25,835 nucleotides of DNA from a virus. The notes below the pieces were generated by a model. That model was not told where the DNA came from, searched no databases, and saw nothing but the letters and a program-made list of their open reading frames with translations. Position numbers and translations under genes: made by a program. Numbering within the stretch: the stretch's first letter is position 1; the number at the start of each line of letters is the position of its first letter. The stretch covers positions 1 to 25,835 of the IMG/VR virus record IMGVR_UViG_3300046011_002532; one strand, given 5' to 3'. This document shows positions 14,202 through 23,500 of the stretch, piece after piece.

Positions 14202-15683
14202 CTACAAACCAATGTCGTCGTAGAGTGGTTTATCGTCATACAAGTGCGAAATATCCTCGATTGCACTCGGCGCGAACGCGATTTGCTCACCGTAGCAAAG
14301 TGAATCTAATACATCGTCAAATTGCCCACGAGGAAACACACGCATTTCTTGTATCAAGTCATCACAATTACCAACAAAGAAGATACTTTTACTCTCCCAA
14401 CGTGGAATTAGTCCACGAATGCGAGTCTCTTTTGCTGTTTGCTTGTGGTCGAGTTCAACAATGTTAATGAATGTATTACGCTTTCGCATTTCATCATCGA
14501 GGAACGGTTTGATTGCAAGTAGGTACACGGTCTTCTCGATTCCGATGTTGATTGGTTGGTATGTACTCCACAAATAGAACAGGTGGTCTATCAAGTCCTT
14601 TGGATTCACCTTTAATTTGTACGCGGTTACATACCACTTATTTTCCCGTGATACTCGAATGACGCTCACGCCTGTGAAGTCAGCACTCGTCTTTTCTGAT
14701 ACAGCAGTGTCGATTGTGATAAACGTGTTAAACGTCAAGTGCTTCAACTGTTCTAAGTCTGCGGTCTGTGTGTATTCTTTCTTAAACTCGGCGATAGAGT
14801 CGTCGATTGGCTGGTTCATCATTTCGTATGAAAATACTTGGCTTCCTAGTTGTCGCTGTTTGTCCTCGATAGATACCTTACCAGTGGCTTCCGCTTCTGC
14901 GTCTGTGAGCGCGTATTTGCCCTCCCACGTTGGTTTACCGTCAATCATGATAGGAATGTTGCGTATGCGTAGTTTGTGGTCTGTTTTGGCGCGTTCCATG
15001 AGCCAGTTAATGTTGCCCGATTCTGTAATGTAGTTACCCAAGTACAGAATGAATCCCTCTGGTGCGATACCAGCGAGTGCTTCTGTGATGTGGTCGCGTA
15101 CTGCCTTAGTGTACGCAGGGCTATCCTTTGTCTTGTTGGTTTCAATATCGTCGCAAATAAGAGCGTCAGGTCGTTGATTCAAGTGAATACGACCACGCAC
15201 CGATTCTTGTGTTGAGTGCGCCTCAATACGAATACCGTTTTCAGTAATGAAGTTGTTGATACGATTCTGTTTAACGTCTTCGATACCACGTTGCTTTGAG
15301 AACAGAACACCGAAATCTGCTTGCAGGCGTTTGTTGTTTACTAATTCAAATGCAACGTCAAAGAGAATACGCTCGGCGTTTTCCTTGTCGTATGAGTCAA
15401 TGTTGATGTACTTGCGCTTGTTGTACGCCACGAGCCATATAACGAATAGTTTTGCGAAGGTCGTTTTGGCTGATTCACGAAAAGCAATCCACGCAACCTC
15501 TCTGATTCTTCCGTCTACCAAGTCATGACAATCTTGGGAGAAGTCCTTGTGGTACTGCGCGATTGGATATTTGAAATACTCCTTGAAGTAGTAAATAGCG
15601 AACAACAAGAAAGAGTGTTCACAGATGAACTTTCTTTCCGCTGGCGTACCGTCAATAACCTTAGCGAGGGCTTTCTTCGTCAT
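14202..15683 (-). CDS. terL: Terminase large subunit (packaging ATPase and nuclease)
   Basis: 493 residues, the normal length. The N-terminal ATPase has a Walker A-like AFRESAKTT (residues 67-75) and a Walker B ALICDDIE (174-181, Asp178/Asp179). Between them, STQESVRGR (157-165) fits the expected beta-strand/loop region. The C-terminal nuclease has the RNase H-like acidic triad: Asp325 in FITIDTAVSE, Glu383 in NIGIEKT, and Asp456/Asp457/Asp460 in QFDDVLDSL. The enzyme cuts concatemeric DNA and drives it into the prohead through the portal. It overlaps terS by 23 nt and ends the first late module. This is the most certain call in the window. Confidence 0.95.
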   Translation of the reverse strand: MTKKALAKVIDGTPAERKFICEHSFLLFAIYYFKEYFKYPIAQYHKDFSQDCHDLVDGRIREVAWIAFRESAKTTFAKLFVIWLVAYNKRKYINIDSYDKENAERILFDVAFELVNNKRLQADFGVLFSKQRGIEDVKQNRINNFITENGIRIEAHSTQESVRGRIHLNQRPDALICDDIETNKTKDSPAYTKAVRDHITEALAGIAPEGFILYLGNYITESGNINWLMERAKTDHKLRIRNIPIMIDGKPTWEGKYALTDAEAEATGKVSIEDKQRQLGSQVFSYEMMNQPIDDSIAEFKKEYTQTADLEQLKHLTFNTFITIDTAVSEKTSADFTGVSVIRVSRENKWYVTAYKLKVNPKDLIDHLFYLWSTYQPINIGIEKTVYLLAIKPFLDDEMRKRNTFINIVELDHKQTAKETRIRGLIPRWESKSIFFVGNCDDLIQEMRVFPRGQFDDVLDSLCYGEQIAFAPSAIEDISHLYDDKPLYDDIGL

Positions 15684-16056
15684 TCCCGTTCAATAGTGAT
15701 AGCAAATCGTTGCGTTGTTCTGGTGTGAATGATTCAGGAATCAAGCGTTCACCGTCTTTACCAGTGTTCTCTACACGCTGTGCAAACTCTGACTTCTTCT
15801 TACGTTCAAGATATTTGAAAGCGTGGTCAGGGTCGCTAAGTGACTTAACAACCGTTTGACGAGCGAGCAATATAGGTCGTTCCCGTAACTCCTGTATTCT
15901 GTCGCGTAATTCGTCGTCGTCTTCAATCCATCTATAAAGAGTAGCGCGGTGTATGTTCGCGTAATACGCCATTTCTTCAATGGTTCCGTCGAGTGCAGCG
16001 ACCTCTTCAATTTTGCGAAGAATCTCGTCGCTTAGTTTTGTTGGTCTTCCTGCCAT
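15661..16056 (-). CDS. terS: Terminase small subunit
   Basis: 131 residues. A helix-turn-helix at about residues 25-47 (TIEEMAYYANIHRATLYRWIE) follows the opening MAGRPTKLSDEILRKIEE, which is typical of terminase small subunits that recognise the packaging site. A helical oligomerisation region comes next (LRDRIQELRERPILLARQTVV) and the tail is charged. It overlaps the methyltransferase end by 25 nt and terL by 23 nt, so the three are translationally linked. A generic transposase-like HTH protein is the alternative, but position makes TerS much more likely. Confidence 0.85.
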   Translation of the reverse strand: MAGRPTKLSDEILRKIEEVAALDGTIEEMAYYANIHRATLYRWIEDDDELRDRIQELRERPILLARQTVVKSLSDPDHAFKYLERKKKSEFAQRVENTGKDGERLIPESFTPEQRNDLLSLLNGNDEESPR

Positions 16057-17255
16057 GTGATTAGTTCACCGTTCTTAATTATCTGGTTGTTACCTGTGTA
16101 CTTAACGTATCTTGATACGATAACGTCTACATACTTAGGGTCGAGTTCCATACCGTAGCAAGCGCGTTGTGTCTTTTCCGAAGCAATAAGTGTAGACCCA
16201 GAACCTAGGAACAAGTCCATAACAATATCGTCTGTTTTGCTTGCGTGCTTAATAGGTTTCTCGCAAAGTTCAACAGGTTTAGCAGTAGCGTGGTCTTTAT
16301 TTCTACCCATCTCTCTTTGCAATCTCCAAATGTCTTGATAATCAAGTCCAAACCTGTTTTTTATTTCAGGGTTTCCCTTTTTACCAACAATACACAGTTC
16401 GTAAGTGGACTTATAGTCACTACCAAGTCCGTGGACTTTCTTATCCCAGACAATCACGTTCTTAACATCCATGTGCTTTTCCATCTCTTGACGTATGTCA
16501 CCGACCTTTCTCCAGTCGATAAATACATAGAAAGCGCAATCTCCTTTCGTGTTGAGTACATAGTTTGCAAATATGTCTGACAGGAACTGTTCCCAGTTTT
16601 CTATCTTGTCGTTGAACATATGAGAAAGCCTGGCTTTCTCATCTCCTGGCTTACCTTGCATTCCAGTATTGTACGGTGGGTCGGTGACTACAATGTCTGC
16701 TTTAAGCCCTTTCATCAAAGTGCCGACGTCTTCCATGCTTGTGCTGTCACCGCACAATACTCGGTGTTTTCCTAGTTCGTACAAGTCGCCAAGTTTACTA
16801 ATAGGTTCTTTCGGTACCTCTGGTACGTCGTCGTCTTTTTCCTCTGGCTCAATAATCAGGTCGCGGTCGTAACCAGTAAGTTCAACCAGTCCAGTATTGT
16901 CTAGGTCGATTTCTTTTAGTTCTTCGATTACCAGTGAGTTGTCGTTGCCCGATAAAGCGTTTATCTGGTTATCTGCTAGGCGGTATGCTTTCTCCTCCGC
17001 TTCTGTTAGTTTGCGTTGCTCTGGTTCGCCTGAAATAGTTTTACCGTTTTCGTCAATAACCCACGGTTCTTTGAGAGAATACTTCTGACCGTACTTCTCG
17101 TAAGCCATGTATCTACCATGACCAACGATTATAAAACCATCTAAGCCAAGTTTAATAGGTTGTTGCCAGCCAAATCTTTGAATTGAACGTGCAATTAGTT
17201 CAACCTGTTTTTCAGGGTGTTGCTTTGCATTTTTTTCGTATGGCTTTATTTCCAT
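16032..17255 (-). CDS. ParB-like domain fused to DNA methyltransferase
   Basis: 407 residues. Residues 1-60 are a ParB/sulfiredoxin-type fold (EKNAKQHPEKQVELIARSI, then VGHGRYMAYEKYG). Residues about 155-385 are an amino-methyltransferase (N6-adenine or N4-cytosine) with the catalytic DPPY at 192-195 and the AdoMet motif DLFLGSGST at 347-355. HATAKPVEL (322-330) matches the conserved segment before the AdoMet motif. Order DPPY then FxGxG is the beta-class arrangement. It would methylate phage DNA in the producing cell, most likely against host restriction; the site is unknown. A TAATG overlap couples it to the upstream gene. ParB-MTase fusions beside terminase genes are seen in other phages. 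Confidence 0.9.
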   Translation of the reverse strand: MEIKPYEKNAKQHPEKQVELIARSIQRFGWQQPIKLGLDGFIIVGHGRYMAYEKYGQKYSLKEPWVIDENGKTISGEPEQRKLTEAEEKAYRLADNQINALSGNDNSLVIEELKEIDLDNTGLVELTGYDRDLIIEPEEKDDDVPEVPKEPISKLGDLYELGKHRVLCGDSTSMEDVGTLMKGLKADIVVTDPPYNTGMQGKPGDEKARLSHMFNDKIENWEQFLSDIFANYVLNTKGDCAFYVFIDWRKVGDIRQEMEKHMDVKNVIVWDKKVHGLGSDYKSTYELCIVGKKGNPEIKNRFGLDYQDIWRLQREMGRNKDHATAKPVELCEKPIKHASKTDDIVMDLFLGSGSTLIASEKTQRACYGMELDPKYVDVIVSRYVKYTGNNQIIKNGELITWQEDQQN

Positions 17256-18537: not shown

Positions 18538-18668
18538 TGGAATCTAACAAACCTAAAAACCCGTACGCCGTCGCTCTTGGTTCTATGCGTTCTGAAAAGA
18601 AAGCAAAAGCGTCGAGAGAGAATGGAAAGAAAGGTGGTAGACCGCGCAATCCACCGAAGCAAGATTAA
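18537..18668 (+). CDS. Tiny basic protein with GKKGGRPR motif (43 aa)
   Basis: Starts at a TAATG overlap. The product is strongly basic. SRENGKKGGRPRNPPK near the C-terminus is the kind of short Gly-Gly-Arg-Pro-Arg element seen in many small phage and plasmid proteins and resembles an AT-hook, so minor-groove DNA binding is possible. Its stop codon touches a terminator. The N-terminal five codons are echoed in the 9-codon ORF at 18289. Confidence 0.6.
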   Translation: MESNKPKNPYAVALGSMRSEKKAKASRENGKKGGRPRNPPKQD

Positions 18669-18690
18669 GTCCCTCACGGGGCTTTTTCTT
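18669..18690 (+). terminator. Intrinsic terminator after the first early operon
   Basis: GTCCC-TCAC-GGGGC gives a 5-bp stem (one G-U) starting just past the TAA stop, followed directly by TTTTTCTT. Confidence 0.75.
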
Positions 18691-18725
18691 ATCCACAGTT
18701 GCTATGTGCGTTTCGATGCTATACT
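18689..18725 (+). promoter_or_regulatory. Initiator-gene promoter with perfect DnaA box
   Basis: TTATCCACA (18689-18697) matches the DnaA-box consensus fully. ATGCTATACT (18716-18725) is an extended -10; the -35 (around 18697-18702) is poor. The box start is 31 bp from the -10 start, one helical turn closer than at 17796 and 20501 (41 bp each). Confidence 0.65.
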
Positions 18726-18752
18726 GTGCGAGTCCGTTCATTAGTCAGTAAT

Positions 18753-18807
18753 CCTTGCGCCCTCTGTCTTACTCATCACTCGCAAGGAGGTGAGTAGGAC
18801 AAAGGGC
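18753..18807 (+). promoter_or_regulatory. Long hairpin / possible pseudoknot in the initiator leader
   Basis: Arms 18759-18775 and 18791-18807 pair at 16 of 17 positions (15 Watson-Crick, one G-U, one C-A mismatch). The loop (18776-18790) carries most of AAGGAGGTGA (18784-18793), a perfect 10-nt anti-16S sequence. CCTTGCG (18753-18759) just upstream is fully complementary to CGCAAGG in the loop (18781-18787), allowing a pseudoknot or alternative stem that would hide the Shine-Dalgarno. No start codon lies at a normal distance. Confidence 0.6.
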
Positions 18808-18816
18808 TACGCCCAA

Positions 18817-19617
18817 ATGGAAAAACAGTTCAAAGTTCGAGATGCTCGACACAAAGAGCAATTCCACATAGACGATGCGTACCTTAACGGATACGCGCGG
18901 TTGTGCGGTATTAACGCGACAGGAGTGTATTTGTGCCTTTGTAGGCACGCAGATAGAAACCAAGAAAGTTTCCCGTCGGTTGAGTTAATGGCTGAAAAAC
19001 TTGGTTTGAGTAAGAGAAGTATTGTAAACGCAATAGCAATACTTGTTAGGTGGAATATTGTCAGTAAAGAGAGAACACGTCGAGAAAATGCAACGTGGCT
19101 AAACAACACGTACACACTTCTTGATAAGTCAGTGTGGTTGCCGAAAGATAGCCAAGTGCACCAGATGCGCGTGGATAGCCAAGTGCAAAATACGACAGAG
19201 CCAAGTGCAAATAACGACACGAGCCAAGTGCACCACGTGCACACTAAGGGAACACATAGAAGGGTTACACATAAGAAGGGAACACATATTAGCGACGAAA
19301 CCGTCGCAGGGAATCCTATTGTTAATCGTCAGATTGGAGAACTGATAAAACAGTTTGAGGTAATCAACCCTGCTTGCTCACGGTACTACGGCAACAAGAC
19401 CCAACGGAAAGCGTGTGAAGCCCTAATCGAGAATGTCGGGTATGACCAAGCGATAAAGGTTGTCCGCGACACGTTACCCATGAGCAACAAGATTGCGTAC
19501 ATGCCGACGATTACAACACCCCTGCAACTGCTGGAACGCTACGCTCAACTGGAATCAGCAATCAACAAAGCAAAAAACAAAACAGAAACTACTAAACAAC
19601 GTAACTTCATTCTATGA
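18817..19617 (+). CDS. Replication initiator-like protein (266 aa)
   Basis: Residues 53-82 form a winged helix-turn-helix (SVELMAEKLGLSKRSIVNAI, HTH_36-like) preceded by GINATGVYLCLCRHAD. The C-terminal part (about 170-260) has the pattern FEVINPACSRYYGNKTQRKACE ending TPLQLLERYAQLE, seen in phage proteins that open an origin or load the helicase. The low-complexity linker (112-158, SQVHQ, SQVQN, SQVHH, then TKGTH, RRVTH, KKGTH) is encoded by iteron-like DNA, as in lambda O. A GTG at 18790 would extend the frame by nine codons but lies inside the Shine-Dalgarno match, so the ATG at 18817 is preferred. Role inferred from domain plan and repeats. Confidence 0.7.
   Translation: MEKQFKVRDARHKEQFHIDDAYLNGYARLCGINATGVYLCLCRHADRNQESFPSVELMAEKLGLSKRSIVNAIAILVRWNIVSKERTRRENATWLNNTYTLLDKSVWLPKDSQVHQMRVDSQVQNTTEPSANNDTSQVHHVHTKGTHRRVTHKKGTHISDETVAGNPIVNRQIGELIKQFEVINPACSRYYGNKTQRKACEALIENVGYDQAIKVVRDTLPMSNKIAYMPTITTPLQLLERYAQLESAINKAKNKTETTKQRNFIL
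19150..19232 (+). repeat. Four iteron-like direct repeats inside the initiator gene
   Basis: AGCCAAGTGCA occurs exactly at 19150-19160, 19177-19187, 19199-19209 and 19222-19232, at 27, 22 and 23 bp spacing, about two helical turns. A fifth partial copy (GTGCA, 19237-19241) makes an inverted pair with the fourth. Candidate initiator-binding sites of the phage origin. Confidence 0.65.
19246..19288 (+). repeat. Second array: three short direct repeats
   Basis: AAGGGAACACATA (19246-19258), AAGGGTTACACATA (19260-19273) and AAGGGAACACATA (19276-19288) follow the iterons. They encode KGTH/RVTH/KGTH. Possibly a second part of the origin. Confidence 0.6.
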
Positions 19618-21994: not shown

Positions 21995-22612
21995 ATGAAG
22001 ATTCTAAACGTAGAGCAAAACACAGACGCTTGGTTGGAAGCACGCCGCGGTAAAATCACTGGCTCAAAACTTGGCGACATCGTAGTGAAGCGCGGTACAG
22101 GCAAGAAGATTGGATTCTACGAACTTATTGCCGAGCGTCTTTCAGTACAGGAAGAACCAGAAGACCCAATGGAGCGTGGTCATCGCTTGGAAGACGAAGC
22201 ACGCAAGAAGTTTGAGGAGACAACAGGAAAGACCGTATCGACCGCGATTGGTATGTGCTACGCAAACGACAACGACGACATCACACTCTCGCCAGACGGA
22301 CTTATCGACAACGACGGCAAGTGGTCAGAAGCGGTTGAGATAAAATGTCTATCAGGTGCAAAACACCTCAAAGCGTACTTTGAAAAGGAAGTACCAGACG
22401 AGTACGAGTTCCAAGTGTTGCAATACTTTATTGTGAACGAAGACCTTGAAACGCTCTACTTCTGCTTCTACGACCCACGCATTACTGCTCTCCCATTCCA
22501 CTACATCGCAATCAAACGCGATTCAGTGGCGGAAGACGTAGAGGAGTACCGCGAGTATCAGAAGACGACGCTTGCAGAAATTAACGACCTTATTACACAA
22601 CTAGCATTCTAA
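21995..22612 (+). CDS. YqaJ-type recombination exonuclease
   Basis: 205 residues, matching YqaJ/lambda-exonuclease nucleases. N-terminal block: TDAWLEARRGKITGSKLGDI (residues 10-29). Next, MERGHRLEDEARKKFEE (59-75), in which Glu66 is probably catalytic. The PD-(D/E)XK core is LSPDGLID (Asp101) and VEIKC (Glu115, Lys117), and YEFQVLQYFIV follows. It would resect duplex DNA 5'-3' to leave single strands for the annealing protein immediately upstream. Nearly all conserved catalytic positions are in place. Confidence 0.85.
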   Translation: MKILNVEQNTDAWLEARRGKITGSKLGDIVVKRGTGKKIGFYELIAERLSVQEEPEDPMERGHRLEDEARKKFEETTGKTVSTAIGMCYANDNDDITLSPDGLIDNDGKWSEAVEIKCLSGAKHLKAYFEKEVPDEYEFQVLQYFIVNEDLETLYFCFYDPRITALPFHYIAIKRDSVAEDVEEYREYQKTTLAEINDLITQLAF

Positions 22613-22945: not shown

Positions 22946-23500
22946 ATGAGAAAAATTAAAACAATCTTTGTCAGAAATGCAGAAAACGGTGGAAAAATAA
23001 TTGACGAGTATGCTGTCGATACTTCCGTCTTTGTAAATGCAAAGGCAACAGAGAAAATCGACGGTACAAACATCAGAGTAACAGTGCGAAATCACACCGT
23101 TGTGCGTGTTGAGAAGCGCAGAAACCCAGATAAGATACAGAAGCACAAGGGCATCATTGAACCTTGGTATGTAGATGCAAGCGATAGTGCGGAAGACAAG
23201 TGGATTATGGAGGCAGTAAGAGGAACAGATTTTTCAGAGATTCCAGACGGTGAATGGAGTGGTGAAGCTGTTGGTCAGAACATTCAAGGAAACCCGCTCA
23301 ATCTTGATTCACACAAGGTCGTCTTCTTTACACTCAATCAAGCACCTATTTTTGAAAATGTGCCTACCGACTATGAAGGTCTAAAAAAGTGGTTGCCTGA
23401 ACAAAAAAGTAAGTACGGAAACAATTGTGGCATTGAGGGCATTGTGTGGCATTGCGCTAATGGCGACATGGTAAAAATTAAAACAAAAGATTTTTTCTAA
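22946..23500 (+). CDS. Small RNA ligase (Rnl2-like nucleotidyltransferase)
   Basis: 184 residues with the covalent nucleotidyltransferase motifs in order. Motif I is TEKIDGTNIRV (nucleophile Lys37). A motif III-like GEWSGEAVGQNIQGNP spans 102-117. Motif IV is IEGIVW (163-168) and motif V is MVKIKTK (175-181, Lys177 and Lys179). RNA ligases of this type repair nicked RNA such as cut tRNA. T4 Rnl2 is about 330 residues; here only the catalytic domain is present, without the C-terminal domain. A DNA ligase is less likely given the DGTN form and size. Leader TAAATCAAA-ATG. Confidence 0.8.
   Translation: MRKIKTIFVRNAENGGKIIDEYAVDTSVFVNAKATEKIDGTNIRVTVRNHTVVRVEKRRNPDKIQKHKGIIEPWYVDASDSAEDKWIMEAVRGTDFSEIPDGEWSGEAVGQNIQGNPLNLDSHKVVFFTLNQAPIFENVPTDYEGLKKWLPEQKSKYGNNCGIEGIVWHCANGDMVKIKTKDFF

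Follow-up and report, generated by a model that had tools for sequence, protein, structure and literature searches.

A candidate bistable, pseudoknot-capable leader RNA ahead of a phage replication initiator gene

The replication initiator gene of the phage studied here is directly preceded by a leader that can form two overlapping helices, a long hairpin stem (S) and a pairing of the hairpin loop (strand U′) with a strand upstream of the stem (U). Comparison of related leaders demonstrates, as far as sequences can, that this structure exists, is conserved and acts in the sense RNA. The element is probably a bistable, pseudoknot-capable, cis-acting 5′ leader RNA whose competing helices control expression of the initiator, most likely at translation. 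A preliminary description of this DNA had proposed a structured leader with pseudoknot potential directly before the initiator gene, and covariation of both helices now backs that proposal.

The window, by which we mean the whole stretch of 25,835 nucleotides that was analysed, is a 25.8-kb tailed-phage fragment with the terminase gene on the minus strand (14202-15683) and a replication module on the plus strand. Other genes of the fragment encode a fusion of a ParB-like domain with an N6/N4 DNA methyltransferase (16032-17255) and an RNA-ligase-like small protein (Pfam RLIG1 / RNA_ligase; 22946-23497) near a YqaJ-like recombinase (21995-22609). Read from ATG 18817, the initiator has 266 residues, an HTH_36 winged-helix domain and matches to the PHROG replication-initiation and O-like families. 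It resembles lambda O in having a replication-initiation winged-helix domain and four iterons within its own coding sequence, but its C-terminal domain belongs to another family. The iteron spacings (27, 22 and 23) are not all multiples of 3, which indicates DNA-level repeats, and the iteron region inside the gene is a probable origin of the lambda-O type. Repeats of AAGGGAACACATA come after the four iterons. Lambda is not known to have a leader pseudoknot of the present kind. The features of the region are the following.

18667-18684, plus strand: terminator-like hairpin with a T-run, closing the upstream operon
18689-18697, plus strand: DnaA-box-like TTATCCACA (exact match), upstream of the promoter
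18717-18725, plus strand: putative extended -10 box TGCTATACT, read from the sequence and not listed by a consensus scan
18752-18759, plus strand: strand U, TCCTTGCG, complementary to the hairpin loop
18759-18777, plus strand: 5′ arm of the long stem S, with G18759 common to U and S
18778-18788, plus strand: apical loop ACTCGCAAGGA, an 11-nt loop that recurs in locus L093 on an unrelated stem
18781-18788, plus strand: strand U′ (CGCAAGGA), part of the apical loop
18784-18793, plus strand: Shine-Dalgarno (SD)-like AAGGAGGTGA, formed by the end of U′ and the first bases in the 3′ arm of S
18789-18807, plus strand: 3′ arm of stem S, also matched by a covariance model
18804-18814, plus strand: predicted mini-hairpin GGGC-TAC-GCCC, from a fold of 18784-18830; its form is not conserved
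18817-19617, plus strand: replication initiator with a winged-helix N-terminal domain and a C-terminal domain containing YYGNxTQR
19150, 19177, 19199 and 19222 (span 19150-19240), plus strand: four exact iterons AGCCAAGTGCA within the initiator gene

A transcript from the extended -10 box would begin near 18732. DnaA boxes are not enriched across the window as a whole; a DnaA-box-like TTAT(C/A)CACA also lies upstream of the promoter for leaders L052, L057, L059, L064, L070 and L120.

The stem of 17 positions described earlier (18759-18775/18791-18807) is present and two pairs longer (18776/18790, U.G; 18777/18789, C-G), with a single mismatch at C18764/A18802. The pairing of the loop with CCTTGCG, likewise proposed earlier, is also larger, since CCTTGCG (18753-18759) is fully complementary to CGCAAGG (18781-18787) and T18752-A18788 brings the helix to 8 bp. 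No other 60-nt stretch of the window folds as stably as stem S (-30.4 kcal/mol versus a mean of -9.8, sd 4.0), and the leader from 18732 to 18830 is more stable than its shuffles (z = -3.8; 1 of 200 shuffles was as stable). A covariance model, R1, scores 44.6 bits at 18764-18802, the window being one of the model's own sequences. Nine nucleotides separate the 3′ end of S from ATG 18817. The mini-hairpin at 18804-18814, which could form only with the base of S open, would end 2 nt before the ATG. Two other readings of the leader were set aside: a second upstream match, TGCGAGT (18727-18733), overlaps the predicted transcription start and is likely due to chance, and GCAA is unlikely to be a GNRA tetraloop, as relatives carry ACAA and AUAA, altering along with U.

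Relatives of the leader were not evident from its own sequence. A search of the leader DNA against phages and plasmids found nothing. The collection contains a single near relative (99.3% identity over 9.8 kb), whose leader does not differ from that of the window and is therefore uninformative. Searches with HTH_36 and with full-length alignments gave few homologues, and the C-terminal domain (alignments A2 and A3) was the productive query, with A3 retrieving 45 loci. One phage (L004/L052) has a terminase 71% identical to that of the window and an initiator that shares only the C-terminal domain; its leader has the same layout in other letters, with GCTTGGA before the stem and TCCAAGC in the loop. 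The window, L093 and L057 have in common the loop ACTCGCAAGGA or a variant of it, on unrelated stems. A pattern in which the upstream strand and loop were fixed and the stem was free matched nine viral contigs, eight of them with stems of 11-18 bp, and a pattern relaxed by purine/pyrimidine ambiguity brought the class to 15 members in total.

The architecture common to these 15 phage loci consists of the strand U, a stem S of 14-19 positions and the loop ACTYRYAAGG[A/C]; CACT, AAGG and GG were demanded by the search patterns, so their conservation is partly imposed. Omitting the final [A/C]GG from the loop pattern, as a negative control, gave 18 extra matches, mostly in GC-rich coding DNA and none with a real stem. 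The element is placed between a promoter-like -10 and the start codon, and boxes similar to TGCTATACT are found before U in most other members. Covariation in relatives, the check that the preliminary description had proposed, strongly favors both helices. For S, 92.9% of cells are paired versus 52.3% after shuffling (0/500), double-sided changes occur at 12 of 14 pairs, and sliding the partner strand abolishes the signal (41-51% paired). Independently of S, 118 of 120 U:U′ cells are paired; at the variable positions 1, 6, 7 and 8 the count is 58 of 60 versus 43.8 expected (sd 2.7), with 0 of 5000 shuffles reaching it. These shuffles ignore the relatedness of the members, but the stem sequences of the 15 loci are unrelated, and inheritance therefore cannot account for the pairing. 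Two overlapping helices that both covary are what is expected of an H-type pseudoknot or a bistable leader.

The strand on which selection acts can be read from the imperfect pairs, because G.U is allowed in the sense RNA while A.C is how a G.U of the other strand appears. In the class of 15, G.U and A.C cells stand at 25:4 (p = 1e-4), and in the other initiator leaders, described below and scored with both kinds of cell treated alike, at 66:7 (p = 4e-13). The excess of G.U indicates selection on the sense RNA and not on DNA or antisense RNA, and a structured antisense RNA is disfavored for the same reason. That the element is a DNA-level or single-stranded-DNA site, such as an initiator-binding site, an origin or a recombination site, is very improbable. 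It does have a DnaA-box-like sequence and an iteron-containing initiator gene as neighbors, but besides the asymmetry its orientation is fixed between promoter and start codon, its stem sequence varies freely and it also occurs before genes unrelated to replication.

The preliminary description had viewed AAGGAGGTGA as a perfect SD sequence. Its 10-nt match to the 16S 3′ end is indeed complete (10/10) and is the single match in the window even when one mismatch is allowed. It was also correct that other genes seldom have SD sequences, a strong one being found at about 1 in 33 starts, and that no start codon lies at the normal distance; instead of a start 5-10 nt or so downstream, the nearest are an in-frame GTG (18790) that overlaps the SD-like string and ATG 18817, 26 nt past GGAGG. 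The pre-start context at genes of the window is A-rich, for example (CT)AAATCAAAAAGTATG, which replaces an SD (17885, 18328, 20766, 21508, 23515 and others), and stop-start overlap (AACTAATG) is frequent at these starts. The SD reading is not borne out by comparison, because the A of AAGGAGG (A18788) is A or C across the 15 members. It is A where T precedes CCTT (5/5) and C where G does (9/9), the remaining member having C opposite C. A G, which could also pair with the anti-SD, does not occur there, and the U-strand base opposite was left unfixed in every search pattern. Because the alternation tracks the U partner, the central A is a pairing partner and not part of a conserved ribosome site. 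It is quite improbable that the string is a true sequestered or standby SD that recruits ribosomes to the initiator mRNA. In its favor, the match is unique in the window, and every member retains AAGG and GG (both demanded by the search patterns). Against it stand the distance to the start codon, the replacement of the central A by C in 10 of 15 members, 9 of which have a matching change in U, and the scarcity of SDs at other genes.

How the two helices might operate is suggested by their geometry. Since U and S have no linker between them and G18759 belongs to both, the complete helices should be unable to coexist. U:U′ (18752-18759/18781-18788) would be able to form once the loop is transcribed, and S (18759-18777/18789-18807) would form as its 3′ arm emerges, giving two states, the long hairpin and an H-type pseudoknot with only the loop-proximal part of S formed. 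Energy predictions agree with this order, with U:U′ predicted in 15 of 15 nascent RNAs ended at U′ and S in 15 of 15 full-length RNAs. S is clearly favored energetically (about -21 to -33 versus -7 to -13 kcal/mol), and so the pseudoknot state may need help. Opening of the lower stem would free GGGC (18804-18807) for the small hairpin 2 nt before the ATG. The states would thereby differ in how the region just before ATG 18817 is presented, which would set the amount of initiator and hence replication. The action would most likely be on translation, in a host that relies little on SD sequences, and the distance from stem end to start codon (about 6-23 nt in 13 of 15 members) fits translational control better than termination. 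The switch itself, its translational level and a trans factor that biases it via the conserved loop ACTYRYAAGG are what we infer from the sequence patterns.

Effects on mRNA stability would give the same sequence signature as translational control. It is rather unlikely that the leader serves mainly to stabilize the mRNA at its 5′ end or to receive a host RNA-binding protein, with the loop as recognition site and translation affected only indirectly. Such a role would suit the conserved loop on freely varying stems, the location near the mRNA 5′ end (in L125, U lies about 9 nt past the -10 box) and the very different genes behind the element. A simple protective hairpin, however, needs no second helix that covaries independently, as U:U′ does.

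Transcription attenuation is a further alternative, in which S would be a terminator and U:U′ an antiterminator or a pseudoknot that gates polymerase into the initiator gene. It is unlikely for the window, where no U-run directly follows the stem (the DNA there reads GGACAAAGGGCTACGCCC), and T-runs follow the stem in only 3 of the 15 class members; the stem is also far longer than those of usual terminators. Formation of U:U′ first in the predicted nascent RNA is compatible with attenuation, as are the more loosely related leaders, in which a run of at least 4 T is found at the 3′ end of the stem in 18 of 25 cases outside the class of 15. Looser forms of the element stand before most of the related initiators, in a set of 39 non-redundant leaders for which the stem and pairing were chosen by a script. 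A strong stem precedes the start codon in 29 of the 39, and 22 of these 29 have exact complementarity of at least 7 nt between the loop and the upstream 50 nt; swapping the upstream segments among phages (2000 permutations) gave 1.1 on average and 5.6 at most. The structure is absent where the initiator sits within an operon. Of the 25 looser leaders, 12 have an ATG-led ORF running across the structure (2.9 expected from shuffling), which suggests a leader peptide with coupled translation in that class. These ORFs (L059, L063, L064, L065, L067, L070, L073, L083, L086, L099, L101 and L106) have roughly 25-45 codons and run from near the promoter to at or just past the initiator start. With T-runs and leader ORFs both common, attenuation or coupled translation may act in the looser relatives. 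In L063, L067, L083 and similar leaders the loop contains an inner hairpin, and the 7-8 nt that it exposes are precisely those able to pair with the upstream strand (L083, AGGC-TTTCGCGA-GCCT; L063, AGGT-TCTAACCG-ACCT).

The genes behind the 15 leaders bear on what might read the element. Initiators follow in the window, L093/L122, L057/L154, L120, L124 and L157, and in L123 after a small ORF. HNH endonucleases follow in L148 (by Pfam) and in L145 and L152 (by motif), and other genes include an AAA ATPase (L119) and, behind a small ORF, an SPFH gene (L125). The endonuclease loci suggest that genes requiring tight control recruit the leader or move together with it. Since the class is not specific to initiators, general autoregulation by the initiator is unlikely, and a shared factor that reads the loop is the more likely explanation.

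The hosts are probably Patescibacteria (CPR). Homologous initiators occur at locus L060, within a Parcubacteria MAG, and at locus L104, within a further genome of the phylum; U:U′ spans 9 nt in the L104 leader. Among 380 genomes from this phylum, 13 contain distant relatives of the window's terminase; among 398 from the phylum of G026, none does. Pattern and covariance-model searches found no chromosomal copy of the element in about 375 Patescibacteria genomes; the pattern gave one match with no space for a stem, and four weak model matches lacked U and resembled ordinary terminators or chance.

Rfam 15 gave no family at gathering score, with chance-level matches only at relaxed thresholds, and none of the papers retrieved contains a description of this leader element. 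The likeness to plasmid initiator leaders noted earlier stands as an analogy. In ColIb-P9 repZ, the loop pairs with a strand by the initiator ribosome-binding site, downstream of the hairpin. A leader peptide, an antisense RNA and a pseudoknot switch control the initiator in this I-complex (IncI/IncB) plasmid (PMC10286972, citing Asano and Mizobuchi 1998). Both systems have a structured leader directly before an initiator and a pseudoknot between a loop and a distant strand, and a further likeness, absent from the window, is the short ORF that spans the structure in 12 of the 25 looser leaders. In contrast to repZ, the partner strand in the window is upstream (18752-18759), the leader frames are TTG-led only with no ATG leader ORF, and the G.U/A.C asymmetry gives no hint that a structured antisense RNA is under selection; the two leaders have no known sequence relation. 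The autoregulatory pseudoknot of T4 gene 32, called perhaps the only viral example in translational autoregulation, is found 67 nt ahead of the start codon and acts together with UUAA(A) repeats (PMC3014915). It too is a pseudoknot in a phage mRNA leader ahead of a replication protein gene, but the stem in the window ends 9 nt before the ATG, where the T4 operator has a pseudoknot tens of nt away and A+U repeats up to the start that nucleate the repressor, both helices are longer and varied genes lie behind the class. H-type topology near a start codon also recalls the rpsO pseudoknot mentioned in PMC3014915. The present class has no metabolic gene context and a free stem sequence, which sets it apart from H-type riboswitches and S15/rpsO-type operators. 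In these regulators, alternative folds near the start codon can gate translation. Leader pseudoknots are a known kind; what appears to be new is this particular family, together with its upstream-strand topology, the loop its members share and where they occur.

It is quite possible, if short of probable, that the element belongs to a hitherto undescribed family of leader RNAs, widespread among phages with probable patescibacterial hosts, which act as two-state switches through a shared trans factor reading the loop. If so, the family would govern when replication begins, and would regulate HNH endonuclease genes in other phages, in hosts that translate without SD sequences. From a loop that is shared while stems vary freely, one would expect a common partner that could be isolated. 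The element also offers an example of a textbook-perfect SD string serving as one strand of a helix. Control of replication level by the leader, as first envisaged, is plausible, and the element, which recurs before replication and DNA-cutting genes of unrelated phages, probably governs when they switch on. A structured RNA family backed by covariation in phages whose hosts are probably uncultured bacteria, where gene regulation is very little known, provides a concrete, testable handle on the start of replication in these phages.
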